Shown here: positions 1 to 18,757 of the stretch, in pieces
Numbering within the stretch: the stretch's first letter is position 1
How the letters are laid out: each line of letters opens with the position of its first letter
Origin: Nitrospiria bacterium
Lineage (GTDB): Bacteria > Nitrospirota > Nitrospiria > JACQBZ01
Direction of reading: 5' to 3'
NCBI GenBank assembly: GCA_035517655.1
Contig: DATIYJ010000011.1
Location: 1 to 64,000, forward strand
DNA: 64,000 nucleotides
Made by a program: the position numbers and the translations under genes
Notes under the pieces: generated by a model
Databases searched by the model: none
What the model was told of the DNA's origin: nothing
Seen by the model: the letters and a program-made list of their open reading frames with translations, nothing else

Positions 1-3000
1 TTATTCGATCCGGGCACCTTCCACTGCAGCGGGTCTTGTCTGACCTTCACCGACTCCACGCTCGTGGCTCACCATGTGGCCGGTCTCACGGGGCTTCAGA
101 GCAACAAGCGATACTGGGTTATCAACGAGGCCACCTCCGCGCACGGGACGACCCGGAGCACCTACGCCTATTCATTCAAGACGAAACCGGGCTCCGTCGG
201 ATCCATCCCCCCCCGCATTTACCTTTCCGATCCGGAAGGGGGGTCGAACGACCGGGTGATGATCATCGATCCGGTCACGAACACCCAGATCCTTCCTTCC
301 ATCGTGGTCACGGGGAATAATCCCACGGAACTGGCGTCGCATCCGGACGCCAGCGCGGTCTATGTGATGGCCGGGAAAAATCTTTCGGTGATCGATGTGC
401 CGACCAACAGCGAATTCGCTTCGCTGTCGGGCGCGGGGGACAGCTCAAACCATCTGGCGGTCTCCTCGGACGGCCACAGACTTTACCTCGTCTATCGGGA
501 TTTGTTGAATTCGACGCTGAAGATCAAGGTGTATGACACAACCGATTCCCACAGTCCTTCCTTGGTGACGACCATCTCCGACCCGGTTTTCAACGGTTGC
601 GCCGCTCCTCTGGGAATCGTCGTCAGCCCGGATGGGAGCCAGGTTTATACGGCCTGCCGGCCGACCGTTTCCAGCTCGCCCGATCAGTTCTACATGGTGG
701 ACACGGCCTCGAACACGCCCACGATCACGGCGACCTTCACCCGGGATTCGACCAACAATACCTCGATCAATGCGATGGCGATCACGCCGGACGGGAGCGA
801 GGTCTTCGTGGCCCGGGACGACGGGAGCGGGGGAGGCCATGCGACCGTGGAGGTCTTCGACGGGGGGACCGGGTCGAATATCGGATCGATCATACTGCCT
901 GCGAGCGCCCTGCCCCGGGCGGGGGTCGTTTCGCCGGACGGGAGCACGCTCTATGTCGCGGACCAGGTGTTGGGGACGCATATCATCGATGCCGTGGCCA
1001 ATACGTATGTCTCCACGATGACCATGGCGACGAGCCGGGGGTTTGACATCGGGATCACGCCGGACGGGACCCGCTTGTACACGTCGCTGCTTTTCGACGT
1101 CTTCGTCAACGATTCCGACGGCAATCCGGTGACGACCATCACCGGAAGCTTCAACGACGCCATGCAGCTCACGGTCACGCCGGGGATCGCCGCTCCGCCC
1201 TCGCCCGACGTGTTGATGACGGATGTCACGCCGAATGCCGCAACGGTATCGGCCGGCGAAACGCTGTCGGTGACGGATTCGGTGAAAAACCAGGGGACGG
1301 CCTCGACCGACAGCAGCTTCTTCATCGGCTACAGCCTTTCGCCCAATACGACCTACGGGGACGGGGACGACGTCGCGATCACGACCACGCGGGTCGTCGG
1401 CCCGTTGGCGGTGGGGCTGACAGATACGGCGACGACCAGCCTGCTCATTCCCAGCACCACGCCGCCCGGCACCTATCATCTCTGCGCCACGGCCGATTCG
1501 ACCGCGGCGTTGGCCGAGAGCAACGTGGACAACAATCCCCTCTGCAGCACCGTCACCGTGGACGTGGTTCGTCCGGACCTGGTGATGACGGCCGTGACGC
1601 CGAATTCCGGGTCGTTTGTGCCCGGCGGCACTTTGTCGGTGACCGACACGGTCCAGAATCAGGGCGGCGCGCCGACCGTCGGTAACTTCACGATCGCCTA
1701 CAGCCTTTCGAGCAACACGACGTACGGCGACGGGGACGATGTGGCGATTACGACCACGCGGGTGGTGGGCGTGTTGGCGGCGGGAGCATCGAACACGGCC
1801 ACGACGAACCTGTTGATTCCAAGTTCCACTCCGCCCGGCACCTACTATGTTTGTGCGAATGCGGACTCGGGCAGTGCGGTGAGCGAGAGCAATGAGACCA
1901 ACAACAGTCTGTGCAGCACGCTTACGGTGGGTCCCGCCACTCCGGATCTGATCATGTCGGCGGTCTCGACCGCGGCGACCGGAGTGGCTCCGGGCGGAAG
2001 CTTCACGCTTTCCAACTCGGCCAAGAACCAGGGAAGCGCCTCGGCGGGGAGCTTTACCATCGCGTTCCACCTGTCGACCAATGCCACGTATGGAGACGGG
2101 GATGATGTGACGATCACCGCGACGCGGACAGTGAGTTCGCTGGCGGCCGGGGCCACCAGCACGGCCTCGACCTCGCTCGTGGTGCCGGCCGCGACGCCGC
2201 TGGGGACGTATTATGTTTGCGCCACGGCGGACAGTGCGAACAGCGTGTTGGAGGGGGATGAGACGAACAACGCCCGCTGCACCACGACGACGATCCAAGT
2301 GACGCGTCCGGATCTGATCATGACGGCCGTGACCCCCAATTCGGGGACGGTGAGCCCCACGGCGACCTTGTCGGTCACCGATTCGGCGAAGAACCAGGGG
2401 GCGGTGACCGCCGGCAGCTCCAAGGTGGGCTACAGCCTTTCGACCAACACGACGTACGGGGACGGGGACGACATCGCGATCACGACGACGCGAACGATCA
2501 GCACGCTGGCGGCCGGGGCGACGAGCACGGCCACCACGACGCTGGCGATTCCCAACACCACGCCGCCGGGAAATTACTACGTCTGCGCCAAGGCGGATTC
2601 GGCCAATACCGTGACGGAGTTGGATGAGACCAACAACACGCTCTGCTCGGCGGCCACCGTCAGCGTGCCGCAGTCGGATCTGATCACGTCGGCGGTATCG
2701 ACCACGGCGACGGTTTTGGCGCCGGGGGGCAGCTTAACGCTTTCGAACTCGGTCCAAAATCCGGGGGCCTTCCCGGCCGGAAGCTTCACGATCGCGTTCA
2801 GCCTTTCCACGAACACGACCTACGGCGACGGGGATGATATTGCGTTCAGCACGACCCGCACCGTCAACTCGTTGGCCTCGGGAGCCACCAGCACGGCCAC
2901 CACGGCCCTCACGATTCCAACCGCGACGCCGTTGGGGACGTACTACGTCTGCGTCATGGCGGACAGCGGCAACAGCGTTACGGAGTCCAATGAATCCAAT

Positions 3001-3774
3001 AACAGCCTTTGCACGAGCACGACGATTCAAGTGACGCGGCCGGATCTGGTTGAGACCGCCGTGACGCCCAACGCGGGAACGGTGAATCAAGGAGCGACGC
3101 TCTCGGTGAGCGATACCGTCATGAATCAAGGCGCGTTGTCCACCGGCGCCGGTTTCAGAGTGGGCTTCCATCTCTCCACCAACACGACGTACGGGGACGG
3201 GGATGACGTGACCATCACGACCGCGCGCGTGGTGGGGGCCTTGGCCGCCGGCGCTTCAAGTTCGGGCACCACGAACCTGGCCATTGCGGCCACAACGCCG
3301 CCGGGAGTTTACTATGTCTGCGCGATGGCGGACTCCCTGGGCCAGGTGACGGAATCGAATGAGACCAACAACACCTTGTGCAGCAGCACCACGGTCACGG
3401 TTCCGCCTCCGGATCTGATCACGACCGCGGTGTCAACTTCCGCGACCACCGTCGCCAAGGGGGCGAACTTCTCCCTCTCGAACACCGTTAAAAACCAGGG
3501 CGGAAGCAAGGCCGGTTCCTTTGCGATCGGCTTCCATCTCTCCACCAACACGACCTTTGGCGACGGGGATGACGTTGCGATTACCCAAACCCGTTCAGTG
3601 GGATCTCTGGCGATCGGGGCTACCAGCGCGGGCACGACAACGTTGACCGTGCCGGGATTAACGCCTTCCGGCACCTACTATGTTTGTGCCATGGCCGACG
3701 TCAACAATACCGTAACGGAAGGGGATGAGACCAATAACTCCCTGTGTACGATCTCCACGATCATTGTGCCGTAA
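1..3774 (+). CDS. Large surface protein with beta-propeller and seven CARDB repeats (5'-partial)
   Basis: The reading frame is open from base 1, so the true start lies upstream; 1257 residues are visible. Residues 1-65 look like the tail of an Ig/fibronectin-like domain. Residues about 75-395 hold YVTN/NHL-type propeller repeats with recurring 'SPDGSxxY' and 'TPDGTRLY' strands. From residue 402 to the end there are seven CARDB-like repeats of about 122 residues, each with 'NxGDGDD' near the middle and 'TYYVCAxAD....ExNETNN' near the end. CARDB modules are adhesion-type beta-sandwiches, so an extracellular or cell-surface role is likely. No C-terminal sorting signal is seen. Long open frames on the opposite strand are shadows of the repetitive GC-rich coding sequence. 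Confidence 0.85.
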   Translation, partial: LFDPGTFHCSGSCLTFTDSTLVAHHVAGLTGLQSNKRYWVINEATSAHGTTRSTYAYSFKTKPGSVGSIPPRIYLSDPEGGSNDRVMIIDPVTNTQILPSIVVTGNNPTELASHPDASAVYVMAGKNLSVIDVPTNSEFASLSGAGDSSNHLAVSSDGHRLYLVYRDLLNSTLKIKVYDTTDSHSPSLVTTISDPVFNGCAAPLGIVVSPDGSQVYTACRPTVSSSPDQFYMVDTASNTPTITATFTRDSTNNTSINAMAITPDGSEVFVARDDGSGGGHATVEVFDGGTGSNIGSIILPASALPRAGVVSPDGSTLYVADQVLGTHIIDAVANTYVSTMTMATSRGFDIGITPDGTRLYTSLLFDVFVNDSDGNPVTTITGSFNDAMQLTVTPGIAAPPSPDVLMTDVTPNAATVSAGETLSVTDSVKNQGTASTDSSFFIGYSLSPNTTYGDGDDVAITTTRVVGPLAVGLTDTATTSLLIPSTTPPGTYHLCATADSTAALAESNVDNNPLCSTVTVDVVRPDLVMTAVTPNSGSFVPGGTLSVTDTVQNQGGAPTVGNFTIAYSLSSNTTYGDGDDVAITTTRVVGVLAAGASNTATTNLLIPSSTPPGTYYVCANADSGSAVSESNETNNSLCSTLTVGPATPDLIMSAVSTAATGVAPGGSFTLSNSAKNQGSASAGSFTIAFHLSTNATYGDGDDVTITATRTVSSLAAGATSTASTSLVVPAATPLGTYYVCATADSANSVLEGDETNNARCTTTTIQVTRPDLIMTAVTPNSGTVSPTATLSVTDSAKNQGAVTAGSSKVGYSLSTNTTYGDGDDIAITTTRTISTLAAGATSTATTTLAIPNTTPPGNYYVCAKADSANTVTELDETNNTLCSAATVSVPQSDLITSAVSTTATVLAPGGSLTLSNSVQNPGAFPAGSFTIAFSLSTNTTYGDGDDIAFSTTRTVNSLASGATSTATTALTIPTATPLGTYYVCVMADSGNSVTESNESNNSLCTSTTIQVTRPDLVETAVTPNAGTVNQGATLSVSDTVMNQGALSTGAGFRVGFHLSTNTTYGDGDDVTITTARVVGALAAGASSSGTTNLAIAATTPPGVYYVCAMADSLGQVTESNETNNTLCSSTTVTVPPPDLITTAVSTSATTVAKGANFSLSNTVKNQGGSKAGSFAIGFHLSTNTTFGDGDDVAITQTRSVGSLAIGATSAGTTTLTVPGLTPSGTYYVCAMADVNNTVTEGDETNNSLCTISTIIVP
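1204..3771 (+). repeat. Seven tandem ~366-bp coding repeats (CARDB modules)
   Basis: Repeat units begin at 1204, 1573, 1942, 2308, 2674, 3040 and 3409, giving in-frame periods of 369, 369, 366, 366, 366 and 369 bp. Units 3, 5 and 7 start with 'AVST' and units 4 and 6 with 'AVTPN'. The linkers after units 3 and 5 are near identical ('TTIQVTR'), as are those after 4 and 6 ('VSVPQ/VTVPP'). The array therefore also has a two-module period of about 732 bp. Confidence 0.9.
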
Positions 3775-4723: not shown

Positions 4724-6076
4724 ATGATGAGAAAAGATCGGCCTGTTTCCATTCCGGGTCAGGCCCTGTCTGTTTTCTTTCTGATGTTGAACTTTATTTG
4801 GGGGGCGGAACCCGCGACCGCGGCCGCTCCGTCGGAAGGGCTTTTCATCTCCCAGATCGCGATCAATCCAAAGGACAGCAACCGCCTCTATGCACTGACC
4901 ACCTACAGCATCGGCGTTTTAAAGAGCACCGATGGGGGAAACACCTGGGTTCAGATCAACCGGGGTATTCGGACCTACTCCCTCTATCAGTTGACCGTTC
5001 ATCCGAAAAATCCGAACATTCTCTATCTGGGCGCCGGGGGAGCGGGGTTGTACAAGAGCACGGACGGCGGCTCCACGTGGAAGGAGATGAATGACGGCCT
5101 CCAGAACACGGACATCGGCATTCTGGTCCTTCATCCGAACGATCCCGAGACGGTCTATATCGTCACGTCCACGGGCCTGTTCAAAAGTCCGGACGGAGGA
5201 AAAAGCTGGATCGCCATGAATCAAGGGGACGACTTCACCTACAGCCAGCAGTTCCAGGCGCTGGCGGTTCTCCCCACCTCGCCCCCCACCTTCTACCTGG
5301 CGTCCAAGCAGGGTCTCTATACGCGGAAGGAGGGAGACGCGGGCTGGGTATCGGTTGGAAAACCTTTTGAGGGGAAGCGGATCTCGGCTCTTGCTTTTGA
5401 TCCCCGGACGGGCCGCCTGTATGTCGCAGTGTTGGAGGGGGGGAAACTCGAGAGCCTTCATGACGGAGGGTTGTTTGTAAGCGACGGTCAAATAAAAAAT
5501 TGGACGCGGCTGGATAAAGGATTGGACCAGGACTGGATTCGGGAGATTTTAATCGATCCGACGAATCCCACGATACTCTATCTGGCCACCACCGGCCGTG
5601 GGGTGTTGAAGAGCATCGACGGCGGCCGGACCTGGAAAGAAATGAACGCCGGGTTTACGGGTTCGGAGCGGGATATTCGGAGCCTGGTCATGGACCCCCA
5701 TGATTCAAGTATTCTTTACGCCGGTTCCCACGGGGACTGGATATTCCGGTCTAGGGACGCCGCGGAAACCTGGAAGCCGCTTCCGCTGGGGCCGCACCAG
5801 ACGATGCAGCAAATCCTCGCCGACCTGATCCGTGAAGATGAAACGGCCAAGAAAGATTCGAAGATCAAGCCTCCGCCTGAGTTTCAAAAGTGCAACCGGT
5901 GCCACGGTTGGATCGATCCCCGGATCAACAGTACCCGGGGAACCTGGCGTGTGGCTCCGAACCGGCGGGACTGGGCGGTGAGCGTGAAACGGATGAGCAA
6001 GGGGGCGTTGCTCACGCCGGCGGAGGAGGCCCGGATCACGGAATTCCTGAACAGCTACAGTGAGGGGAAACGGTGA
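4724..6076 (+). CDS. Exported Asp-box beta-propeller with C-terminal monohaem cytochrome c domain (paralogue 1)
   Basis: 450 aa. A signal peptide probably ends near residue 33 (ATAAA). Five or six Asp-box (BNR) motifs follow, such as 'KSTDGGNTWVQ', 'KSTDGGSTWKE', 'KSPDGGKSWIA' and 'KSIDGGRTWKE', the signature of sialidase/Vps10-type propellers. The C-terminal ~65 residues carry C390-x-x-C-H394 (CNRCHGW), then 'WRVxPNRRDW', a Met in 'KRMSKG' that could be the distal haem ligand, and a final helix 'LTPAEEARITEFLNSY', all typical of a small class I-like cytochrome c. Two close paralogues follow in the same operon. Its stop overlaps the next start (GTGA). The function is unknown; a periplasmic or surface redox role is inferred. 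Confidence 0.85.
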   Translation: MMRKDRPVSIPGQALSVFFLMLNFIWGAEPATAAAPSEGLFISQIAINPKDSNRLYALTTYSIGVLKSTDGGNTWVQINRGIRTYSLYQLTVHPKNPNILYLGAGGAGLYKSTDGGSTWKEMNDGLQNTDIGILVLHPNDPETVYIVTSTGLFKSPDGGKSWIAMNQGDDFTYSQQFQALAVLPTSPPTFYLASKQGLYTRKEGDAGWVSVGKPFEGKRISALAFDPRTGRLYVAVLEGGKLESLHDGGLFVSDGQIKNWTRLDKGLDQDWIREILIDPTNPTILYLATTGRGVLKSIDGGRTWKEMNAGFTGSERDIRSLVMDPHDSSILYAGSHGDWIFRSRDAAETWKPLPLGPHQTMQQILADLIREDETAKKDSKIKPPPEFQKCNRCHGWIDPRINSTRGTWRVAPNRRDWAVSVKRMSKGALLTPAEEARITEFLNSYSEGKR

Positions 6077-7329
6077 AGAGAAAGACGACGATGGCGAAAG
6101 GGACTTATTTCATTCTGCTGCTGATCGTGGCATGCTCATTCATCGTGTCTTCCAGTCAACCGGCGCCGGCCGCGCCGGAACAACCGAAGGGCTTTTTGCC
6201 CGGAGAGATCCCGATTTCGATCATTCACGCAACAGAAGAAGAAGATCCGGTCATCACTTCCGATGGGAAAAGCTATGTGGTGGTCTGGCAAAGCGATCGA
6301 AAAAGCCTCGACGATTACGATGTGTACGCCGCGCGGGTCAGCTCGGAAGGAAAGATTCTCGACCCACGGGGCATTCCGGTTTCGACGGCCCCTTCCAACC
6401 AGATCTTTACCGACATCGCCACGGGCGATGGACAATATCTCGTGGTCTGGCAGGATCTCCGCAGTCACAAGCGCTGGGAGGTGTACGGAGCGCGGCTTCG
6501 TTCCGACGGCAAGGTGCTCGATCCCGACGGAATCCCGATCGCGACCGGGAGGGGCAACGCCCGGCATCCGCAGGTGGGTTGGGACGGGAGAAATTTTCTG
6601 GTCGTCTGGATGGAAGAAAATCCTGGCCGGGGATGGGATATCGTAGGGGCCAGGGTGAGTCCGGACGGGGGGGTCGTGGATCCGGATCCGATTCTTATTG
6701 CGTCGTCCCCGGGTGATCAATCCAATCCCGTGTTGGCCTGGGGGGATAATCAATATCTGGTGGTCTGGATGGACCATCCCCCGGGCAGCCCCCCACGGAT
6801 TTCAGGGGCGCGTGTTTCCGCATCCGGAAAGTTGCTCGATCCGAATGGATTCGTTCTTTCCCGTTCCTCCGTAAATCCCAGTTTTCCCGCCGTGGCGTGG
6901 GGAAAAGACCGCTATGTCGTCCTCTGGGCCGATCAGCCGGCCCCCTCCCTTCACACCCTGGCCGGGATACGGGTCGATTCCGCCGGGAAGGTGGACGACT
7001 CGAACGGGTTCGTGGTGGAGAGCAGTCCAAACCTCCACATGTTTCCTTCGGTGCGTTGTTCGGGACAACGGTGCCTCGTTGTGTGGGAAAAGGAACAGTC
7101 CCGAGGAAAGCCGCGGGGGATTCAAGATGTCATTCGGGATGTGAAAGGGGCCTGGATCGATCTTTCACAAAAAACGGTGACCCCTCGTGAGATCATGATC
7201 GCGACCGCAGCCGTCGGAAACCATTTTGCCAAAGTGGCCTCCAACGGCCGCGAATATTTCGTGGTCTGGAAGGATTATCGGACCGGCACGGCCGCCAGTA
7301 TCGGTCGCTTCGTGGGCCCCCCTCGTTAA
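6073..7329 (+). CDS. Secreted repeat protein, haem-free propeller-like
   Basis: 418 aa from a GTG whose overlap with the preceding TGA (GTGA) and 'gagggg' Shine-Dalgarno sequence support this start; an internal ATG at 6091 is the alternative. A signal peptide covers roughly residues 1-34. Repeats of about 55-60 residues follow the pattern 'YLVVWxDxR....YxVYGARxxxDGKVLDPxGIPI', as found in uncharacterised secreted proteins of environmental bacteria. There is no CxxCH motif and no recognisable catalytic site. Its position between two propeller-cytochrome genes suggests a structural or binding partner of those proteins. No function is assigned. Confidence 0.8.
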   Translation: MKRKTTMAKGTYFILLLIVACSFIVSSSQPAPAAPEQPKGFLPGEIPISIIHATEEEDPVITSDGKSYVVVWQSDRKSLDDYDVYAARVSSEGKILDPRGIPVSTAPSNQIFTDIATGDGQYLVVWQDLRSHKRWEVYGARLRSDGKVLDPDGIPIATGRGNARHPQVGWDGRNFLVVWMEENPGRGWDIVGARVSPDGGVVDPDPILIASSPGDQSNPVLAWGDNQYLVVWMDHPPGSPPRISGARVSASGKLLDPNGFVLSRSSVNPSFPAVAWGKDRYVVLWADQPAPSLHTLAGIRVDSAGKVDDSNGFVVESSPNLHMFPSVRCSGQRCLVVWEKEQSRGKPRGIQDVIRDVKGAWIDLSQKTVTPREIMIATAAVGNHFAKVASNGREYFVVWKDYRTGTAASIGRFVGPPR

Positions 7330-7332
7330 GCC

Positions 7333-8685
7333 ATGGCCCTCCGCCCCCTTTATTCGAAACTCCTTTTCGCCCTCGGTCTGGGTTCCCTTTTCTGTTTGAA
7401 CACGGCTTGGGCCGCGTTCCAGGAGCCGCTCCTGATCAATCAGATCGTGATCGACCCCCGGAATCCCAGCATCCTTTACGCCGCGGCACGACCCCAAGGG
7501 GTCCTCAAAAGCACGGATCGGGGAGGAAGCTGGCGCCCGGTTCGTCGCGGTCTGATGAACACCAGCGTCTACTATATCATCGTGAACCCGAAGAACACCC
7601 AAATCCTTTATTCGGCGACGTTCGGCGGAGGAGTTTACAAGAGCGAGAACGGCGGCGACGATTGGTTCGAGGTGAATCGCGGTCTGGGAAACACGAATAT
7701 CCACGCACTGGCCTTGAATCCCCTTCAACCCGACCGGCTCCTCGTCTCGACTTCAACCGGCGAACTCTTCAAGAGCGACGACGCCGGTCGAAGCTGGAAC
7801 CCCTTTAACGAAGGTCTGCCCATTTTTCCCGGGGATGTGATCTCGACGCTTCTCATTTTCCCGAAAGATCCCGGAGGATTCTACCTGGCTCAAGGCGGAC
7901 TTTTTATGCGGCCCTTTTCTTCTCCAGCCTGGCGGGCCGTTGAAGGCAATCTTCACGATGACATCATCACGGCCATGGCTCACGATTCCTCCGGCCGGGC
8001 CTTCTATGCCGGCACAATCAATCACGGACTTTTTAAAGCCTCCCTGGGTCCCGACGCCGCAAGCGCCGAACCCATGACTGTACGGTCCCCCTTGCATTGG
8101 AAACCGGTCGGAGGGCCGTTTCAAAAGCAACAAATTCGCTTCATCGCCATGGAACCGGGGAGGCCGGCCGCAATGTATGCGTCGGTCGTCAGCCACGGGC
8201 TCTTTAAAAGTTCAGACGGGGGTTCTTCCTGGGAGGCGATCAATTCCGGATTTCCGGAGCTGGAGGTTGAGAGTTTGGCCATTGATCCGGAAAACCCGAA
8301 GTTTCTTTACGCCGGGACACACAACGACGGTCTTTTTACCTCAAGGGATGGCGGAAAAACATGGAATCCTCCTTCAAAGATTGAGGTCGAGCCTTTAAAG
8401 CAGATTATCGCCTCCCTTTCCGGACCATCTCCCGCCGATCAACCCCGGCCGCCGCAGGACGCGCCTCCGCCCTTTTTTTTCAAATGCAATAAATGCCACG
8501 GCTGGACGGATGCGTTGTTGAACCAAAAAGCGACCTACTGGCGGGTTTCCCCCAATCAACGCGATTGGCAGCCGACCGTTCGGCGGATGAGTCCGGGGGC
8601 CGGCTTGACGGCGGGCGAGCAGGAAGCGGTCATTCGATTTTTAACGGCGTACGGCCAACAACGGAGCGGAGCGCCCGAGCGATGA
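7333..8685 (+). CDS. Exported Asp-box beta-propeller with C-terminal monohaem cytochrome c domain (paralogue 2)
   Basis: 450 aa, three bases after the preceding stop. The signal peptide ends near 'TAWAA' (about residue 28). Asp-box motifs include 'KSTDRGGSWRP', 'KSENGGDDWFE', 'KSDDAGRSWNP', 'KSSDGGSSWEA' and 'TSRDGGKTWNP'. The haem motif is C385-x-x-C-H389 (CNKCHGW). It is followed by 'TYWRVSPNQRDW', a Met in 'RRMSPG' and 'LTAGEQEAVIRFL', matching paralogue 1 in order and spacing. A proline-rich linker separates propeller and haem domain. The stop overlaps the next ATG (ATGA). The product is probably periplasmic or surface-exposed, with unknown substrate. Confidence 0.85.
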   Translation: MALRPLYSKLLFALGLGSLFCLNTAWAAFQEPLLINQIVIDPRNPSILYAAARPQGVLKSTDRGGSWRPVRRGLMNTSVYYIIVNPKNTQILYSATFGGGVYKSENGGDDWFEVNRGLGNTNIHALALNPLQPDRLLVSTSTGELFKSDDAGRSWNPFNEGLPIFPGDVISTLLIFPKDPGGFYLAQGGLFMRPFSSPAWRAVEGNLHDDIITAMAHDSSGRAFYAGTINHGLFKASLGPDAASAEPMTVRSPLHWKPVGGPFQKQQIRFIAMEPGRPAAMYASVVSHGLFKSSDGGSSWEAINSGFPELEVESLAIDPENPKFLYAGTHNDGLFTSRDGGKTWNPPSKIEVEPLKQIIASLSGPSPADQPRPPQDAPPPFFFKCNKCHGWTDALLNQKATYWRVSPNQRDWQPTVRRMSPGAGLTAGEQEAVIRFLTAYGQQRSGAPER

Positions 8686-9971
8686 GACGAGCCTGTCTCC
8701 TTTGGGTCTTGGTGGCCTTCATCGGACTCACTCCAACGGAACCGGCCGGAGCGGCCGAAGAGAAAGAAGGGCCTTTCGTGATTCACCGGATCGCGGTCGA
8801 TCCGCAAAATCCTCAGATGGTCTATGCCGCGACGAGTAACTACGGGATCCTCAAAAGCGGCGACGGCGGAACGACCTGGGCCTTGATCAATCAAGGCATT
8901 GGAAGTTATACGCATCATGCGCTGGTCGTCGACCCTTCCGATCCCAATATCCTTTATGCGGGTGCTTGGGGCGGCGGCGTATCGAAGAGTCTGGATCGCG
9001 GGATTCATTGGACCGAGATGAATCGTGGACTGGGCAATACCGCGATCGAGGATCTTGTCTTGAGTCCGGGCCATCCCGAGATGGTTTACGTAGCGACGAC
9101 GTCGGGTGTTTTCAAAAGCCCGGACGGGGGAGCCAGCTGGATCTTTTACGGCGAAGGGCTTCCGATCGCCCGGATCGAGATTTTCGAACGTTTAATCGCC
9201 TTGCCTTCCGGTCCGGTTGAGCTTTTGCTGGGAACCAGTCGGGGCCTATTTGAACGGGAAAGGAACGCCTCCAAATGGGCGGCGGTCGCTTTGCCCGTCA
9301 AGGAAGCCCATATCACCGCGTTCGCTTGGGACCCGAGGACGGGGGCGGTTTATGCGGGAACGGTCAAAAACGGTTTGCTTCAAAGTCGGGACGGTGGAAA
9401 AACATGGATCGCCTTGGGTGGAGGATTTAAAAATGTCTGGATCAGCGATATCGCCCTTGATCTTCACGGCTCCGGGATCCTATACGCTTCAACGCGCGGG
9501 CATGGAATCATAAAAAGCCTCGATGGAGGCGCCACGTGGAAAGAGGCCAACGGCGGACTGCCGGTCAAGGATATCCGAAGCGTGGCGATGGCTCCCGGAA
9601 ATTCGAAGATTCTTTACGCCGGCACGACGTATCAGGGTCTTGTTAAAACCATCGACGGGGGAGAGCGGTGGAACCCTCTGAAAGGCTATCCCCTGATGAG
9701 CGTCAACGAAATCGTGGCTTCCCTTTCCGGTTCATCCGCCCGCACGGGAATTTCTTCCGAGCCGTCCGTTCCGGCGGAGTTTTTCAAGTGTAACCGATGT
9801 CATGGCTGGGCCGACCCCTTCCTCAACAAGAAGAAGACCTATTGGCGGGTTCCGCCGAACCGAAGGGATTGGGGGATGACCGTCGGTCGAATGAGCCAGC
9901 GGGCCCGTCTCACACCGGATGATTCGCGGAAGATCATCGATTTCTTAACCCGGTATACCCTGAAGAAATGA
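8682..9971 (+). CDS. Exported Asp-box beta-propeller with C-terminal monohaem cytochrome c domain (paralogue 3)
   Basis: 429 aa. The frame is open further upstream (to 8493), but the ATG at 8682 overlaps the preceding TGA and opens directly into a signal peptide (MRRACLLWVLVAF...AGAA), so it is taken as the start. Six Asp-box motifs follow, for example 'KSGDGGTTWAL', 'KSPDGGASWIF', 'QSRDGGKTWIA' and 'KSLDGGATWKE'. The haem motif is C370-x-x-C-H374 (CNRCHGW), followed by 'TYWRVPPNRRDW', a Met in 'GRMSQR' and 'LTPDDSRKIIDFL'. The stop overlaps the next ATG. It is the third member of the tandem paralogue set. Confidence 0.85.
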   Translation: MRRACLLWVLVAFIGLTPTEPAGAAEEKEGPFVIHRIAVDPQNPQMVYAATSNYGILKSGDGGTTWALINQGIGSYTHHALVVDPSDPNILYAGAWGGGVSKSLDRGIHWTEMNRGLGNTAIEDLVLSPGHPEMVYVATTSGVFKSPDGGASWIFYGEGLPIARIEIFERLIALPSGPVELLLGTSRGLFERERNASKWAAVALPVKEAHITAFAWDPRTGAVYAGTVKNGLLQSRDGGKTWIALGGGFKNVWISDIALDLHGSGILYASTRGHGIIKSLDGGATWKEANGGLPVKDIRSVAMAPGNSKILYAGTTYQGLVKTIDGGERWNPLKGYPLMSVNEIVASLSGSSARTGISSEPSVPAEFFKCNRCHGWADPFLNKKKTYWRVPPNRRDWGMTVGRMSQRARLTPDDSRKIIDFLTRYTLKK

Positions 9972-11185
9972 TGCGATCGGGCGGTTTCAACGGGTTCGTG
10001 ATCGGAGCGATTCTCTTTTCGGTCCTATGGCCGGGGCCGGCCATGCCTCAAGATACTCCGGAACAAACGGTGAGGCGGGTCTGCGGATCCTGTCACGCGC
10101 TGGAGGTCAACCGCTTGTGTTTGGCGGGCGACTGTCAGGGTCTACGGGTGCACCGCACGCAGTCCCGGGACTGGGTCATGGTGCTCGGCTGGATGCGAGA
10201 GGCGTTCGGGTGCCGGATGACCGACGGTGAATTTGAGACGATCGGCCGTTATCTGAACGGCCTTTCTCCCTTGAAGAAACCCTACCCGCACACATGGAAA
10301 AAAGCGGGGATCATTCCCGGCGGCTGGAATGTGGTCTCTCTCACGGCCGACGGAGATGTTCTCTATGCCGGCGTCGAGGGAAATGGTATGATCTATCGCA
10401 CCACCGATGGACTCCGCTGGGCGGAGGTGGCCAGGACGGGGCACGTCACCGTCTATGGGATTACGCGTTTTCAGGGGGCGCTTTACGCGGGAACCAATAA
10501 TCCCGACCCGGAGATCTGGACCAGCCCGGAGGGCGTCCACTGGAATCCGGCGGCCCATCTTCCGTCCGAAGACCGCGGGGTGATCAGCATGGGAGTCTTC
10601 AAGGGCTTCCTCTATGCCGGAACGGGGCGGGCCCGGATTTACCGATCCCGGGACGGGAAGCGATGGGATGCAGCGGGGACTTTGGAGGCGGGTACCGTCG
10701 CGGGGTTCCCCGCCTGGGTGCGGTTTCTCGTGGAATTCCATGGCCGTCTTTATGCGGGGATAGAGTCCGGGAAGCTCTACCGGACCGAAGACGGAGTTCA
10801 TTGGACGGAGGTGGCGCCAACGGTGACGCAGTCGGGCGGAGTTCGAGGGGCGGCCGTGTTTCAGAACGCTCTCTATGTCGGAACCACGCGGACGGGGCAT
10901 ATTTGGAAAACGGGAGATGGAATTCTGTGGGATGATGTTTTCGACGCGACGACCCGCCGGCCGGGGAAATACGTGGGTTCCATGGCCGTTTATCAAGACG
11001 CCCTCTATGCCGCCGTTAATGGTTTTATCTTTCGCACGAAAAACGGGCGGAACTGGGACGAGGTCGGAAATCTCAGCGCGTTGTCCATCGAAGCCATGAC
11101 CCCGTTTCAGGGTTCATTCTATGTGGGGACGACCATGCCTCCCTCCGCTTGGATTTTCCGGACCGAAGAGAACGGGAAGCCGTGA
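9968..11185 (+). CDS. Exported cytochrome c / beta-propeller protein with N-terminal haem domain
   Basis: 405 aa. The ATG at 9968 overlaps the previous stop (ATGA). The signal peptide ends near residue 28 (AMPQD). The haem motif is near the N terminus, C39-x-x-C-H43 (CGSCHALE), followed by 'RDWVMVLGWMREAFG' and 'MTDGEFETIGRYL', again a small cytochrome c fold with a candidate Met ligand. Residues about 110-400 form a six-bladed propeller with variant Asp-box strands such as 'YRTTDGLRWAE', 'YRSRDGKRWDA' and 'YRTEDGVHWTE', each blade also carrying 'xLYAGT'. Domain order is the reverse of the three upstream paralogues, so the same parts were combined differently. Confidence 0.85.
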   Translation: MMRSGGFNGFVIGAILFSVLWPGPAMPQDTPEQTVRRVCGSCHALEVNRLCLAGDCQGLRVHRTQSRDWVMVLGWMREAFGCRMTDGEFETIGRYLNGLSPLKKPYPHTWKKAGIIPGGWNVVSLTADGDVLYAGVEGNGMIYRTTDGLRWAEVARTGHVTVYGITRFQGALYAGTNNPDPEIWTSPEGVHWNPAAHLPSEDRGVISMGVFKGFLYAGTGRARIYRSRDGKRWDAAGTLEAGTVAGFPAWVRFLVEFHGRLYAGIESGKLYRTEDGVHWTEVAPTVTQSGGVRGAAVFQNALYVGTTRTGHIWKTGDGILWDDVFDATTRRPGKYVGSMAVYQDALYAAVNGFIFRTKNGRNWDEVGNLSALSIEAMTPFQGSFYVGTTMPPSAWIFRTEENGKP

Positions 11186-14094
11186 ATAGGATGGCGATTT
11201 TCGTTTGCGGGATCTTCTTCATTTCGGGGGCGTCGGCGCTCATCTTCGAAACGCTCTGGTTTCGCCAGGCCGGGTTGGCGCTCGGCAACAGCGTTTGGGC
11301 TTCCAGCCTGGTCCTTTCGGGTTTTATGGGCGGACTGGCCATGGGCAACGCGCTGGCCGCACGGTACGGAAATCGCTTCGGCAATCCGGTCCGCGCCTAC
11401 GCCGTCGTCGAAGGGGCCATCGCCTTATCCGGCGTCGGAATCGTCTATCTCTTTCCGGTTTTCGGGGCCGCACTCGCCCCCTGGTTTCGGCCGCTGCTGG
11501 AGTATTCATGGATTTTAAACCCCCTCCGGCTCTTGATCGCGTTCGCCTTGCTCTTGACTCCGTCGACGGCCATGGGGGTGACACTGCCCTTGCTTACGAA
11601 AGTTCTCGCGGCGTACGATCCCAGCTTTGGCCGCGTGTTGGGCCGGCTCTATGGGTGGAACACCCTCGGTGCGGTGATCGGAGTGGTCGTCGGCGAGACG
11701 TATCTCATCGGTGCTTTGGGCGTGCACGGGACGGCGGTGATGGCCGGAGCCTTGAACATTGCGGCGGCCGCGGCGGCGGTGTGGCTCTCGACCCGGGCCC
11801 TGCGTCCCGTCCCGTCCCCCGAGGGAGCGGGACGGGGGGAACCCTATTGGACCGCGGGATGGTACTGGCTCATCGCGGCCTGCCTTTCGGGATTTTGCCT
11901 TCTGGCCCTGGAAGTCGTCTGGTTCCGGTTCCTTTTGTTGTTTGTCATGGGCCATTCGGCGGCCTTCTCGCTCATGCTGGGCGTTGTTCTCGCGGGTATC
12001 GCGCTCGGAGGGTTGGCGGCTTCCCGATGGCTTCGCCACTCGCCCGACGCCCATCGCTTCGCCGCCCCGATCGCCTTCGCGGCAGGCCTTTTGTGCGTGG
12101 GTTCCTATGCCGCCTTCCCGCTGATCATGATGCCCTTCGCAACCTCGCCGTACGCGATCAGCAAGACCCTCGACATTATCCATGTCGGCCTGCCCCTCAT
12201 GATTCCCGTCTCCTTCCTTTCGGGGATCTTTTTTACCCTGGTGGGTGCGGCTCTGCGCCATCATCTGGCTTCGGAGACGGCGACGACCGGGGTCCTGACC
12301 CTGGCCAACACCATCGGGGCCGCGCTCGGGTCTCTGGTGGGCGGATTTATTTTTCTTCCCGTTTTGGGGATGGAGAAGTCGTTCTTCCTGATCGCGATCC
12401 TCTACGGGGGGTTGGGGGCGCTGTTGCTTGTGAAGGGCCGGGCCCCGCGGAGAATGGCCTATGCGACGGCCGCCGTATTTTTGTTGAGCGTCGTTCTTTT
12501 TCCCTTCGGGTCCATGGAGAAGCGTCTTCTGCAAGTACCCGTGAAGCGGTATCTTCGTCAAAATACCGAAAGCCGGATAGCCGGCGTACGCGAGGGTCTC
12601 ACCGAGACCATCATCTACTTTGAGACATTGGTGTTTGGAAAACCGGCGTACTACACGATGCTGACCAACTCGGTGTCGATGTCCGGCACCAAGGACGCAT
12701 CCCGCCGCTACATGAAGCTCTATGTCTACTGGCCGATGGCGGTTCATCCAAACCTGAAACGGGCTCTCCTGATCTGCTACGGGGTAGGGAACACGGCCAA
12801 AGCGATGACCGATTCGAAGAGTCTTGAGACCATCGATGTGGTGGATATTTCCCGCGATGTTGTGGAGATGAACAACCTGGTCTATCCCAATCCGGCCGAT
12901 CGGCCCGTTCAAGATCCTCGGGTTCGCGTACATATCGAAGACGGGAGGTACTTTCTCCAGACGACCGAACGGCGCTTCGATCTGATCACGGCCGAACCGC
13001 CGCCCCCGGGCATCGCCGGGGTCGAGAATCTGTACACGCGCGAGTACTTCCAACTGCTTCACGACCGGCTTGCGGATGGAGGAATCGTCACCTACTGGCT
13101 GCCTCTCCATTCGCTTTCCGATGTGAGCACCAAGGCGATTCTCCGAGCCTTCTGCGACGTGTTCGGAGACTGCTCGCTCTGGAACGGCATGGGCACGAGT
13201 TTGATGATGGTGGGAACCCGGAATGCCAACGGTCCGGTTTCCGAGGACCAGTTCAGGCGTCAGTGGAGCGATCCGGTTGTGGCGCGTGAGATGAAGGCGG
13301 TCGGTTTCGAACGGCCGGAGCAGCTTGGCGCGCTTTTCATCGGGGATGCCGAGTATCTGAAAGGGATCATCGCCGATTCTCCGCCCCTGGTGGATAATTA
13401 TCCGAAGCTCATCGAGGCCCCCTTGGGTTCTCAAGAAGAAGTCGCCCGGCTCTTTCAGAGCTTCACCGATGTGGCCGCCGCGAAAGAACGCTTCCGTCGG
13501 AGCCCCCTGATCAAACGCCTGTGGCCGGAGCCGCTGCTGAACGCGTCGCTTCCCTATTTCGAATTTCAGGACATTATAAACGCCCACTGGTACGGTACAA
13601 TGCAAAAGCAGCACCCCGGCATCCTCGATGCGCATCATCTCCTCACCCGATCCCACTTGATTACCCCGGTCCTCTGGCGCCTGGGAAGTGATCGGGACGT
13701 TCAGCGGATCGTGGCCGATGCGGAGCCCGCGGAACGGGCAGAGCCCGCCATGCAATTCCAGCTCGGGATCGGCCTCATTTCCGAACGCGATTACGCCGCG
13801 GCCGTGGAACCCCTGACCCAAGCCGAACAACTCCCGCCGCTTCGTGAAGCTGCGTTTCGCCTCCGTATCTATGCACTCTGCATGTCCGGTCAAATTGATC
13901 AGGCCCAACGTTTGACGCAGGAGCGTTTTGCGCAGCTTCTGACGACGGCGAAAGACATCCCTGTGAAGTCCGCCGAGGAAATCCCGCTTCCGTCTTTCTG
14001 GATGTGGATGAAGCAGACCTTCGGGATCGATCCCCGCACGGGCGCACCGATTCCACGGGCTTCGACGGGGGAAACGTTGCGCCCCGCCCCATGA
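11182..14094 (+). CDS. Membrane-embedded spermidine synthase-like protein (fused transporter-like + methyltransferase-fold domains)
   Basis: 970 aa from the GTG that overlaps the preceding TGA (GTGA); an ATG at 11191 is also possible. Residues 1-455 hold roughly 12-14 hydrophobic helices of the type fused to spermidine synthases ('FFISGASALIFETLWFRQAG', 'GWNTLGAVIGVVVGE'). Residues about 500-700 are a Rossmann-like spermidine-synthase domain: 'ALLICYGVGNTAKAM', 'IDVVDISRDVVEMN', 'DPRVRVHIEDGRYFL'. The 'GxGxG' loop reads 'CYGVGN'. The last ~200 residues look helical and repeat-like. Such fused proteins are common but mostly uncharacterised, and polyamine synthesis is not assured. It ends the coupled operon. 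Confidence 0.8.
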   Translation: MNRMAIFVCGIFFISGASALIFETLWFRQAGLALGNSVWASSLVLSGFMGGLAMGNALAARYGNRFGNPVRAYAVVEGAIALSGVGIVYLFPVFGAALAPWFRPLLEYSWILNPLRLLIAFALLLTPSTAMGVTLPLLTKVLAAYDPSFGRVLGRLYGWNTLGAVIGVVVGETYLIGALGVHGTAVMAGALNIAAAAAAVWLSTRALRPVPSPEGAGRGEPYWTAGWYWLIAACLSGFCLLALEVVWFRFLLLFVMGHSAAFSLMLGVVLAGIALGGLAASRWLRHSPDAHRFAAPIAFAAGLLCVGSYAAFPLIMMPFATSPYAISKTLDIIHVGLPLMIPVSFLSGIFFTLVGAALRHHLASETATTGVLTLANTIGAALGSLVGGFIFLPVLGMEKSFFLIAILYGGLGALLLVKGRAPRRMAYATAAVFLLSVVLFPFGSMEKRLLQVPVKRYLRQNTESRIAGVREGLTETIIYFETLVFGKPAYYTMLTNSVSMSGTKDASRRYMKLYVYWPMAVHPNLKRALLICYGVGNTAKAMTDSKSLETIDVVDISRDVVEMNNLVYPNPADRPVQDPRVRVHIEDGRYFLQTTERRFDLITAEPPPPGIAGVENLYTREYFQLLHDRLADGGIVTYWLPLHSLSDVSTKAILRAFCDVFGDCSLWNGMGTSLMMVGTRNANGPVSEDQFRRQWSDPVVAREMKAVGFERPEQLGALFIGDAEYLKGIIADSPPLVDNYPKLIEAPLGSQEEVARLFQSFTDVAAAKERFRRSPLIKRLWPEPLLNASLPYFEFQDIINAHWYGTMQKQHPGILDAHHLLTRSHLITPVLWRLGSDRDVQRIVADAEPAERAEPAMQFQLGIGLISERDYAAAVEPLTQAEQLPPLREAAFRLRIYALCMSGQIDQAQRLTQERFAQLLTTAKDIPVKSAEEIPLPSFWMWMKQTFGIDPRTGAPIPRASTGETLRPAP

Positions 14095-15567: not shown

Positions 15568-15747
15568 TTAGTCGGTGCTCCAGTATTGTATCGTGTAATA
15601 GACCCCCCAGATCAGCAGGGCGATCGCGACGACCACGAGCCATGGTGGAATTTTTCCGTGTCGTTCCGAAATCCCGGCTTCTTTGTACAGATAGAGTTCC
15701 CCTTCACCGTGCGTTTCTTGATCGGGTGGTTTGGCTTCTTTGTTCAT
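15568..15747 (-). CDS. 59-aa single-helix membrane protein, probable oxidase accessory subunit (CcoQ/CcoP-anchor-like)
   Basis: Reading the minus strand from the ATG at 15747, which overlaps the stop of the oxidase fusion gene by four bases (ATGA), gives 59 codons and a TAA at 15568. The first ~33 residues are hydrophilic (MNKEAKPPDQETHGEGELYL...), ending 'HGKIPPWLVVV'. One hydrophobic helix follows (WLVVVAIALLIWGVYYTI), then 'QYWSTD'. The 'HGKIPPWL...IWGVYYxIQYW' pattern recalls the membrane anchor of CcoP and other small cbb3 subunits. Coupled translation with the oxidase gene supports a subunit or assembly role; the exact family is not certain. Confidence 0.75.
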   Translation of the reverse strand: MNKEAKPPDQETHGEGELYLYKEAGISERHGKIPPWLVVVAIALLIWGVYYTIQYWSTD

Positions 15748-18710
15748 GGTCGACCTCCGGGGAAGGCCGGCGCCGGCCCCTGCGCAACCTTCAATGGATG
15801 CTTATCCAATTGCGCCAGCTCCTCTTGAATCACACCGTGATCCAAGTGACCTGTTTGCGCGGCGTCCGACAGCGAGGCCCAGACCGTGGACAGCGCCTCG
15901 GTCCGGTCCGATGTTTTCAGTCCCACGGCCACCAGTTCGCCGGCATGGGCCTGGACGCGCAAGGACTGCACATAGTGCACAATGTCCCAAATCCCCATGG
16001 GGGTCAGACCCTGAGGGGCCGCACAACTATTACGCTTTCTCAAATCCGGGGGGATGAGCTGACTTTCAAATTCCGGCATGGGGGTTCCGCCCACGCCGGT
16101 CATGATCGTCTTAAAGATGTGGTCTCCGTCATGGCCCAGCTTTACCCCGCCGTGCTCGCCGGCCGGCAACGTAAAGTTGGCCGGATGTTCCTGATGACCC
16201 CAAACGTCCGTCAGTCCTTTGGCCAGTATCCCGTCGCCTTGTCCTGCTGCACCATGGCATAAATAACAGATGGCTTTGCCGTGGAACAGTTTCTCGCCGT
16301 TTTCGATCGAAGCCTCGGTGACCGGAGGCTCGGGCGGCACGGGGATCGGTTCACCGACCGGCTCTTTCGCCCAGCGATCCGAGAAGGTTTTAATGTACTG
16401 GATAACCGCGATCCGTTCACGCTCCGAGATCTCCTGCCAGGTCGGCATGGCCGTTCCCCATAGTCCATGGGTGACGGTAATAAAAAGATCACCGTCGGTC
16501 GGCAGGGAATCCTTTCCCGGCGTCGAGCGGAATTTGAAAACCCCTCGGGTGAAGTCCCGCGGTTTGGGGTCTAAAAAGACGGCGGATGGCCCCTGTCCGT
16601 CACCGTTTTCCCCATGACAGCCGATGCAACGCCGTTCGTAGACTTCTTTTCCCAACAAGACGAGCTGCGCTCGCTCCCGGGGAGCCATCGTGAGCGAAAC
16701 TCCGGAGGATAAGCGGGTTGGTATAAATGTCTCGCGCCAGTCTCCGATTCCCGTACCCAACCGCTGGAGGTACGCGACGAGCGCCTTCCCATCGTCGTTC
16801 AGTCGGGGTGGTTCGTTTCCTTTCGCCGGATTGAAAAGCCAGGGAAACGACGGCATGATCGAGTCCGGAACGACATGACGCGGGTTCCAGTGATGGGCCG
16901 TGTTCCAGTCATCCCCGTATTTTCTTCCCACCCGTGTCAGGTCCGGACCGATGCGGCGCGTTCCGAAGAGATGGGGGAAATCATAGGCGTATTCGCCGGC
17001 CTGAGAAACCGGTCCCCAACGCAGCGTTTCTCCCGTGACGGAGCGGACATATTGGGAGTGACAATACCAGCATCCCTCCCGGATATAGACCTTTCTCCCT
17101 CGGGCTTCGAGCGGCGTGTAGTCGGCCACACGGATCGGTTTTTTCGTGGCTTCATCGATCACCGTATCGGTGCGAGTCTGGGGCATCATCCACGGCACGA
17201 TCCCCTGCACGAAGACCGCGAGGAAGAAAAATCCCAGTCCGGCTGCGAGGAAAACCGTGGAGGGGGTCTCGACCCAACTCCCTCGGGGCGGGGCCATTGT
17301 TGACGGGGTTGGCTCCCAAAGGGAGGTGTCCGGAACCTCCCGCTCCACCGGTTTTCCTTCGCGCGCCGTTTTATATAGGTTGATCACCAACAGTACGAAG
17401 CCGATATCCATCGTCAGCCCGGAGAGACTGCGGACCGCCCACCAGGGCTTCAACTCTTTCACGGTATCGACGAAATTGGCCTGGTACTCCAGCATCGAGC
17501 CCTGGACAAACCCCATGGCGGTCAGGACGGCGGCCATCAGGCTGAACCCCGTGATGGTGAGCCAGAGATGCCAGCTGCCCAAGCGGTTGCTCCACAGTTC
17601 ACGCCCTGTCACCCGCGGCCAGACATAGTAAAGTCCGCCGATGACCCAGAGGACCATGGCCCCGAAGACTGTGAGATGGGAATGCGAAATCACGAAATCG
17701 TTGAAATGGGTCAGCTGCTGGACCCTTCGGAGCGCCTCCGTTGATCCTTGAAAGCAGCCGAGGAAATAATAAATGGCGCCGAGAATTAAAAACTTGGCGG
17801 CGTAGTTGTCTCCTCCTCCGCCGCCGAGGATCGTTCCCCAGCGGCCGGCCATCGTCCCGAAGAAATTGACGGTCACGGCCCAGACCGGAATGATCAGAAA
17901 CATGCTGGTCGTGATCGCCATCGTCTGATTCATGTTCGGGATCGGGCTGTAAAGATAATGGTGGATTCCGACGAAGGGATAGAAGAGGGCCAGCGACCAG
18001 AATCCCAACAACGACAGGCGGTGGCTGTAGAGGGGGTTCTTGGAACTGACCGGAATAAAGTAATAAATCGTCGCGAGTCCGGCCGGCGTCAGCCACAGCC
18101 CGACGATATAATGAATATACAGGCCGTGCATCGCGGCGCTGTTGACGCCGGAGAAGGCCGGGACGTATTTCAGAATGACATCCCCTAAAACCAGGTTCAT
18201 CACGGTCCAGATGAAGGCCGCGGTGGTGTACCACATCGCCACGTAAAACCGCCTCTCCTTGCGCCGCCAGATCGTTCCCATGATCTGGATGGTGACCGCC
18301 GACAGGACAATGAAACGCAGAATCGCGAAGGGCCATTCGAATTCTCCGGCCTCCAGTCCCGAGTTGTAGCCCAGCATGAAGGAGATGGCGCCGAAGACGA
18401 TAAAGGCGTTCCAGATCCACAACAACCACCGGCCCCATTCTTCTTTATACATCCGGACCCCGCAGAGGCGGGGGACGAAATAGTAGGCCAGGGCGATGAA
18501 GGTGGTGGAGAACGCTCCGAAGATTACGCCGTTGACATGAACCGGACGCAAGCGTCCGAAGGTCAGCCACGAAATGCCGCCCAGAAAGTCGGGCTCATGG
18601 AACTTGATCGAAACGAGCAGGCCTACGAGAGGAAAGACGGTCAGCCAGACCATGGCCCAAGCCAGCCATTGTTTCACTAACGATCGGTTGACGAGGACCT
18701 CGTCATTCAT
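15744..18710 (-). CDS. cbb3-type cytochrome c oxidase, CcoN-CcoO-diheme cytochrome (CcoP-like) fusion
   Basis: 988 aa; the start at 18710 has 'aaggag' 8 bases upstream, so nine extra in-frame codons upstream are left out. Residues 1-450 are CcoN: His58 (low-spin haem), His200 with His250/His251 (CuB), Tyr244 six residues before the HH pair (the cross-linked Tyr position), and His343/His345 in 'SHSHL' (haem ligands). Residues about 485-665 are CcoO-like with an anchor helix and C547WYCH551. Residues about 680-780 and 800-915 are two class I cytochrome domains with C695IGCH699 and C815YLCH819. It would reduce O2 with electrons from periplasmic c-type carriers. Three normally separate subunits are joined in one chain. 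Confidence 0.92.
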   Translation of the reverse strand: MNDEVLVNRSLVKQWLAWAMVWLTVFPLVGLLVSIKFHEPDFLGGISWLTFGRLRPVHVNGVIFGAFSTTFIALAYYFVPRLCGVRMYKEEWGRWLLWIWNAFIVFGAISFMLGYNSGLEAGEFEWPFAILRFIVLSAVTIQIMGTIWRRKERRFYVAMWYTTAAFIWTVMNLVLGDVILKYVPAFSGVNSAAMHGLYIHYIVGLWLTPAGLATIYYFIPVSSKNPLYSHRLSLLGFWSLALFYPFVGIHHYLYSPIPNMNQTMAITTSMFLIIPVWAVTVNFFGTMAGRWGTILGGGGGDNYAAKFLILGAIYYFLGCFQGSTEALRRVQQLTHFNDFVISHSHLTVFGAMVLWVIGGLYYVWPRVTGRELWSNRLGSWHLWLTITGFSLMAAVLTAMGFVQGSMLEYQANFVDTVKELKPWWAVRSLSGLTMDIGFVLLVINLYKTAREGKPVEREVPDTSLWEPTPSTMAPPRGSWVETPSTVFLAAGLGFFFLAVFVQGIVPWMMPQTRTDTVIDEATKKPIRVADYTPLEARGRKVYIREGCWYCHSQYVRSVTGETLRWGPVSQAGEYAYDFPHLFGTRRIGPDLTRVGRKYGDDWNTAHHWNPRHVVPDSIMPSFPWLFNPAKGNEPPRLNDDGKALVAYLQRLGTGIGDWRETFIPTRLSSGVSLTMAPRERAQLVLLGKEVYERRCIGCHGENGDGQGPSAVFLDPKPRDFTRGVFKFRSTPGKDSLPTDGDLFITVTHGLWGTAMPTWQEISERERIAVIQYIKTFSDRWAKEPVGEPIPVPPEPPVTEASIENGEKLFHGKAICYLCHGAAGQGDGILAKGLTDVWGHQEHPANFTLPAGEHGGVKLGHDGDHIFKTIMTGVGGTPMPEFESQLIPPDLRKRNSCAAPQGLTPMGIWDIVHYVQSLRVQAHAGELVAVGLKTSDRTEALSTVWASLSDAAQTGHLDHGVIQEELAQLDKHPLKVAQGPAPAFPGGRP

Positions 18711-18757
18711 GCGATGTCTCCTTGAATGGAAGGACACATTTATTTAAAGGATGGCCC

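Follow-up and report, generated by a model that had tools for sequence, protein, structure and literature searches.

The combination of a propeller with a cytochrome c is an architecture already known. Type II quinohaemoprotein dehydrogenases carry one cytochrome c domain at the C-terminal end of an exported PQQ propeller, and extracellular electron routes are best known from multihaem cytochromes. In the 64,000-nucleotide stretch of the Nitrospiria contig DATIYJ010000011.1 analysed here (the window), five coupled open frames at 4724–11185, all on the + strand, encode a set that resembles these dehydrogenases in the order of an exported propeller and then one C-terminal cytochrome c, but differs from them in having an Asp-box propeller and several paralogues per operon; a PQQ-propeller family was absent among the Pfam matches up to an E-value of 1. 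The haem domain of the quinohaemoprotein amine dehydrogenase α-subunit (PF09098, TIGR03908) is weakly similar to the haem module of this set (P5 module against PF09098, 15.1 bits; cut-off, 25.2) and to the N-terminus of P4 (against TIGR03908, 14.9 bits; cut-off, 274), whereas the propellers fused here belong to other families. Mtr-type porin–cytochrome systems are comparable in the possible passage of electrons across or outside the envelope, and differ in that the proteins here are predicted to be single-haem. When haem module, propeller type, and gene set are taken together, no described system was matched within the libraries and literature searched, in agreement with the earlier note, which knew of none: Pfam, NCBIfam, and PDB returned no named system, and a literature survey on propeller–cytochrome proteins, Nitrospirota, and extracellular electron transfer, mostly at the level of titles and abstracts, showed no such system. 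Cytochromes are also unmentioned in a 2009 survey of the Asp-box (PMC2716378).

The genes of the block, with the open frames next to it, are as follows.

P1 (P0001), gene 1, 4724..6076, + strand: signal peptide, Asp-box propeller, and C-terminal haem module; CxxCH at residue 390 (nt 5891–5905)
P2 (P0002), gene 2, 6073..7329, + strand: exported, haem-free, probably propeller-like repeat protein
P3 (P0003), gene 3, 7333..8685, + strand: signal peptide, Asp-box propeller, and C-terminal haem module; CxxCH at residue 385 (nt 8485–8499)
P5 (P0005), gene 4, 8682..9971, + strand: signal peptide, Asp-box propeller, and C-terminal haem module; CxxCH at residue 370 (nt 9789–9803)
P4 (P0004), gene 5, 9968..11185, + strand: signal peptide, N-terminal haem domain, and DUF6242-type propeller; CxxCH at residue 39 (nt 10082–10096), with a CxxxxC pair also present
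P6 (P0006), 11182..14094, + strand: fused MFS/spermidine-synthase-like membrane protein, coupled to the block, yet unconserved beside the cluster outside the genus
P0008, 3881..4657, + strand: GspC-like (type II secretion) lipoprotein, flanking and non-core (NCBIfam GspC_delta, E-value 6e-12, under the cut-off)
Upstream frame, 1..3774, + strand: open at the contig start, with a fibronectin-like end, a YVTN-type propeller, and CARDB-like repeats, as judged from the sequence

The earlier note had assigned four haem-bearing propeller genes to the interval; the four are there, each with one CxxCH (P1, P3, P5, and P4), but the interval holds five genes, the additional P2 having no CxxCH. All five products have N-termini resembling signal peptides by eye. 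The close coupling described in that note was found at every junction, with GTGA at P1/P2, a 3-bp gap at P2/P3, and ATGA at both P3/P5 and P5/P4. Position 11185 is the end of P4 rather than of the coupled chain, which continues into a sixth gene, P6, through a GTGA overlap. A scan for promoters and terminators gave no promoter-like sites, and terminators at chance level. P6 and P0008 were both dropped as core members, being unconserved beside the cluster across families.

The C-terminal modules of P1, P3, and P5 share the context TYWRVxPNxRDW...RMS, at which P1 reads GTWRVAPNRRDW. This context had been attributed to all four haem genes, but it is confined to these three: the haem domain of P4 follows the pattern CGSCH...CLAGDC...RDW...WM and is a different domain, not an N-terminal copy of the same module. 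An alignment of 22 modules shows no variation at eight residues (C, C, H, W, R, W, R, and M), which are also retained at 100% in a set of 34 sequences, and the CxxCH is also kept among the aligned P4 homologues. Since these residues are conserved across homologues, chance occurrence of the haem motif is excluded; loss of the CxxCH in orthologues had been named in advance as evidence against the reading, and the motif was found in 100% of the 34 C-terminal modules. P1, P3, P5, and P4 are thus predicted from the conserved CxxCH to be monohaem c-type cytochromes. Met404 of P0005, invariant across the aligned modules, is the likely sixth haem ligand. The C-terminal module resembles cytochrome c families below threshold (Dehyd-heme_bind, best E-value 3e-4; Cytochrome_CBB3, best E-value 6e-4).

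The propeller bodies of P1, P3, and P5 match the Asp-box families Sortilin-Vps10, PSII_BNR, and BNR in Pfam, with Sortilin-Vps10 above the cut-off for all three, and each contains four to five strict SxDxGxxW motifs. Strict Asp-box motifs are absent from P2, which matches DUF3659 (Pfam, E-value 3e-7), and from P4, so that the assignment of a signal peptide, an Asp-box propeller, and one CxxCH to each of the four haem genes is correct for P1, P3, and P5, and fails in P4 at its DUF6242-type propeller. An AlphaFold2 model of P5 (pLDDT, 87.6; pTM, 0.86) shows a strand-rich body with a helical module at its C-terminal end, and Foldseek with this model returned GH74, Ycf48, and other propellers, including those from two-component sensor proteins. 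In both sequence and fold, the propellers belong to the same families as the Asp-box proteins of the Ycf48/HCF136, sortilin, and F510_1955 types, but the NCBIfam scores lie under the equivalog cut-offs and the matched structures carry no reported haem domain. To our knowledge, no redox cofactor is associated with the Sortilin/Ycf48/GH74-type Asp-box families. A GH74-like glycosidase was rejected, P5 having a single propeller and a helical module and scoring under the cut-off of the F510_1955 model; GH74 xyloglucanase has two tandem seven-bladed propellers, and GH74 chains match P5 over only half their length. In PHROGs, a single weak match was to a family annotated without function. An invariant pair of histidine residues (H78/H79) was found in the P5 clade only.

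In a maximum-likelihood tree of 36 sequences, the C-terminal-haem propellers fall into the clades P1 (100/98), P3 (100/99), and P5 (97/96), with an additional clade, P1b, that is absent from the window. The P1, P3, and P5 clades each cover several families; therefore, either the duplications predate the families or the genes spread together. From the tree, the paralogue clades are old, and each is separately maintained across families. Identity between the clades is 52% for the haem modules and 35% for the propellers, bearing out the proposal that diverged propellers share one kind of haem module, and the distinct propellers may give distinct binding faces to this module.

A search of relatives revealed homologous clusters in nine other genomes. 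The profile of the module alone matched 10 of the 270 genomes of the class (five families; eight of 56 genera), with two to six matches per genome; full copies scored 85–125 bits, one copy adjoining masked bases scored 49. G012 has six matches, of which one (25 bits) is the haem domain of P4. Non-carriers in a wider sample of the phylum reached at most 28 bits, and of three such low-scoring matches that were inspected, one proved to be a multihaem protein and two were short cytochromes with a single haem. When 84,980 species were scanned with one strict motif, which diverged relatives escape, the relatives found were solely in Nitrospirae bacterium records. The operon is patchily distributed, in a minority of related subsurface Nitrospirota. 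P4 was likewise found in 10 of the 270 genomes, nine of them shared with the 10 module carriers; the chance value of 5e-15 for this co-occurrence presumes independent genomes, which they are not. In G001, the overlapping ends of contigs C36 (L034) and C26 (L097) put P6 directly after P5, and P4 appears to have been lost, while in G015, P4 and a giant CxxCH protein occur without C-terminal-haem propellers; the gene set is therefore not indivisible. Strong homologues of P2 lie within the clusters.

A genus-mate without the operon (G002) retains a scrap of P2 (61 residues, 72% identical; L072:8494–8676, equivalent to G002:C1:12493–12675) adjoining an integrase-like fragment, which is likely a deletion scar.

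The strongest evidence for joint working of P2, P5, and P4 is provided by natural fusions in two separate families. P5–P4 form one frame of 856 residues in G019, with CxxCH at 395 and 471, and P2–P5–P4 form one frame of 1267 residues in G008, with CxxCH at 806 and 900. A hydrophobic signal segment precedes the haem of stand-alone P4 proteins (peak, 2.0 to 2.9) and is gone from the fusions (0.3 and 0.7 at the P4 junction; 0.2 at the P2–P5 junction). Because the internal signal peptides are missing, a frameshift or assembly error is unlikely. The order of the fusions sets the C-terminal haem domain of P5 beside the N-terminal haem domain of P4; domain packing is not fixed in the fusion model (pTM, 0.51), and its fold search gave generic tandem propellers only. 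A further candidate partner is a giant secreted repeat protein with a single haem domain of its own, present in eight of the 270 genomes, every one a carrier. In relatives, the giant protein is encoded next to the cluster. The frame at 1–3774 resembles the giant proteins from L021 and L073 in layout and has no frame-1 stop at its start, and it probably represents the C-terminal part of such a giant monohaem protein, whose haem domain would then fall beyond the contig edge.

Based on these features, we consider it on balance somewhat probable that the locus encodes an extracytoplasmic electron-transfer assembly of single-haem c-type cytochromes on propeller scaffolds. The proteins of this set probably act as one electron-passing complex, because in some relatives members of the set are made as a single polypeptide. 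In this assembly, the C-terminal haem of P5 would lie beside the N-terminal haem of P4, as in the fusion order, with electrons passing between them; P1 and P3 would use different propellers to bring the same haem module to further partners, the propellers serving for docking or binding. A scaffold or surface anchor may be provided by P2 and the giant repeat protein, and a periplasmic cytochrome would be the final source or sink of the electrons.

The part order, a propeller followed by one C-terminal cytochrome c, would also suit a set of oxidising enzymes like type II quinohaemoprotein dehydrogenases, in which the propeller holds a catalytic metal or quinone site and the haem is the electron exit. 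The weak likeness of the haem module to the haem-binding domain of quinohaemoprotein amine dehydrogenase points in the same direction, and the clade-specific H78/H79 of P5 could bind a metal. However, the propellers are of the Sortilin/Ycf48/GH74 Asp-box type, with no PQQ-propeller family, and the inspected flanks have no cofactor-synthesis or substrate gene in common, so that we regard an enzyme set as unlikely. The flanks are family-specific, and they hold no donor or acceptor gene shared by the clusters, which, like the divisible gene set, speaks against the electron-transfer assembly. In two genomes of the family f5, genes for an MMPL transporter, a DUF1302 protein, and a barrel-like protein adjoin the cluster, to which G010 adds LolA_like/DUF1329. 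This neighbourhood recalls the AmeABCD efflux cluster of Castellaniella defragrans, whose AmeC is described as related to photosystem II assembly factors and is not called a haem protein in the excerpted text of the source (PMC6394551), and would accord with Ycf48-like propellers that acquired a haem and serve as accessory or assembly proteins of an envelope exporter. Such a role is improbable in our estimation: MMPL and DUF1302 genes were seen next to the cluster in f5 alone, and the role leaves the invariant haem without a reason.

Cell-surface haem-based sensors or adhesins are less probable still. Propellers, fibronectin-like domains, and CARDB repeats commonly serve in binding, and the fold search returned sensor propeller domains among its hits, but the conserved core of the inspected clusters contains no recognisable signalling gene. 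A bolder form of the electron-transfer assembly would be an undescribed cell-surface machinery of subsurface Nitrospirota, in which many single-haem propeller proteins replace multihaem cytochromes and the partner is solid, polymeric, or hydrophobic; this we hold to be doubtful. If true, the monohaem propeller set would represent a design different from the multihaem routes. An Mtr-type conduit was set aside, MtrB_PioB (PF11854) matching none of the 10 carriers in a search that does find one in G013. With regard to nitrite oxidation, the model of the Nxr-type α-subunit (type II DMSO-reductase family, TIGR03479) gave weak matches, below 80 bits, in the carriers and 714 in the non-carrier G009, no genome reaching the 985-bit cut-off. 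The monohaem propeller set could also reveal how these uncultured Nitrospirota, apparently not nitrite oxidisers, gain their living. The interaction is directly testable with the natural fusions, which already provide the constructs.

Several other genes were observed near the clusters and in the window. In the family f1, a GspC-like lipoprotein gene adjoins the cluster in two genera; an adjacent homologue of P0008 was found only in G005, of the same family. In two genera of f6, RoxA-like dihaem proteins (L030:10503–11999 and L074:4070–5602) adjoin a fructose-bisphosphatase (called by eye in G016) and P1-type haem-propellers. In G008 and G020, the P4 homologues have dihaem proteins of 623–631 residues (L032:3573–5468 and L033:4260–6131) as neighbours; neither has a match in Pfam, and that of L032 has none in NCBIfam. 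P6 is an MFS/spermidine-synthase fusion with a C-terminal extension, of which G000 and G001 have several copies of 59–77% identity, one of them with an internal TGA; elsewhere, only distant copies occur. Within the window, cytochrome c maturation-like genes are present, as is a cbb3-like oxidase, by eye, and both favour the electron-transfer assembly. The oxidase frame at 15744–18737 on the – strand (997 residues) appears, by eye, to join a cbb3-type CcoN with CcoO and additional haem c domains, and contains three CxxCH motifs.
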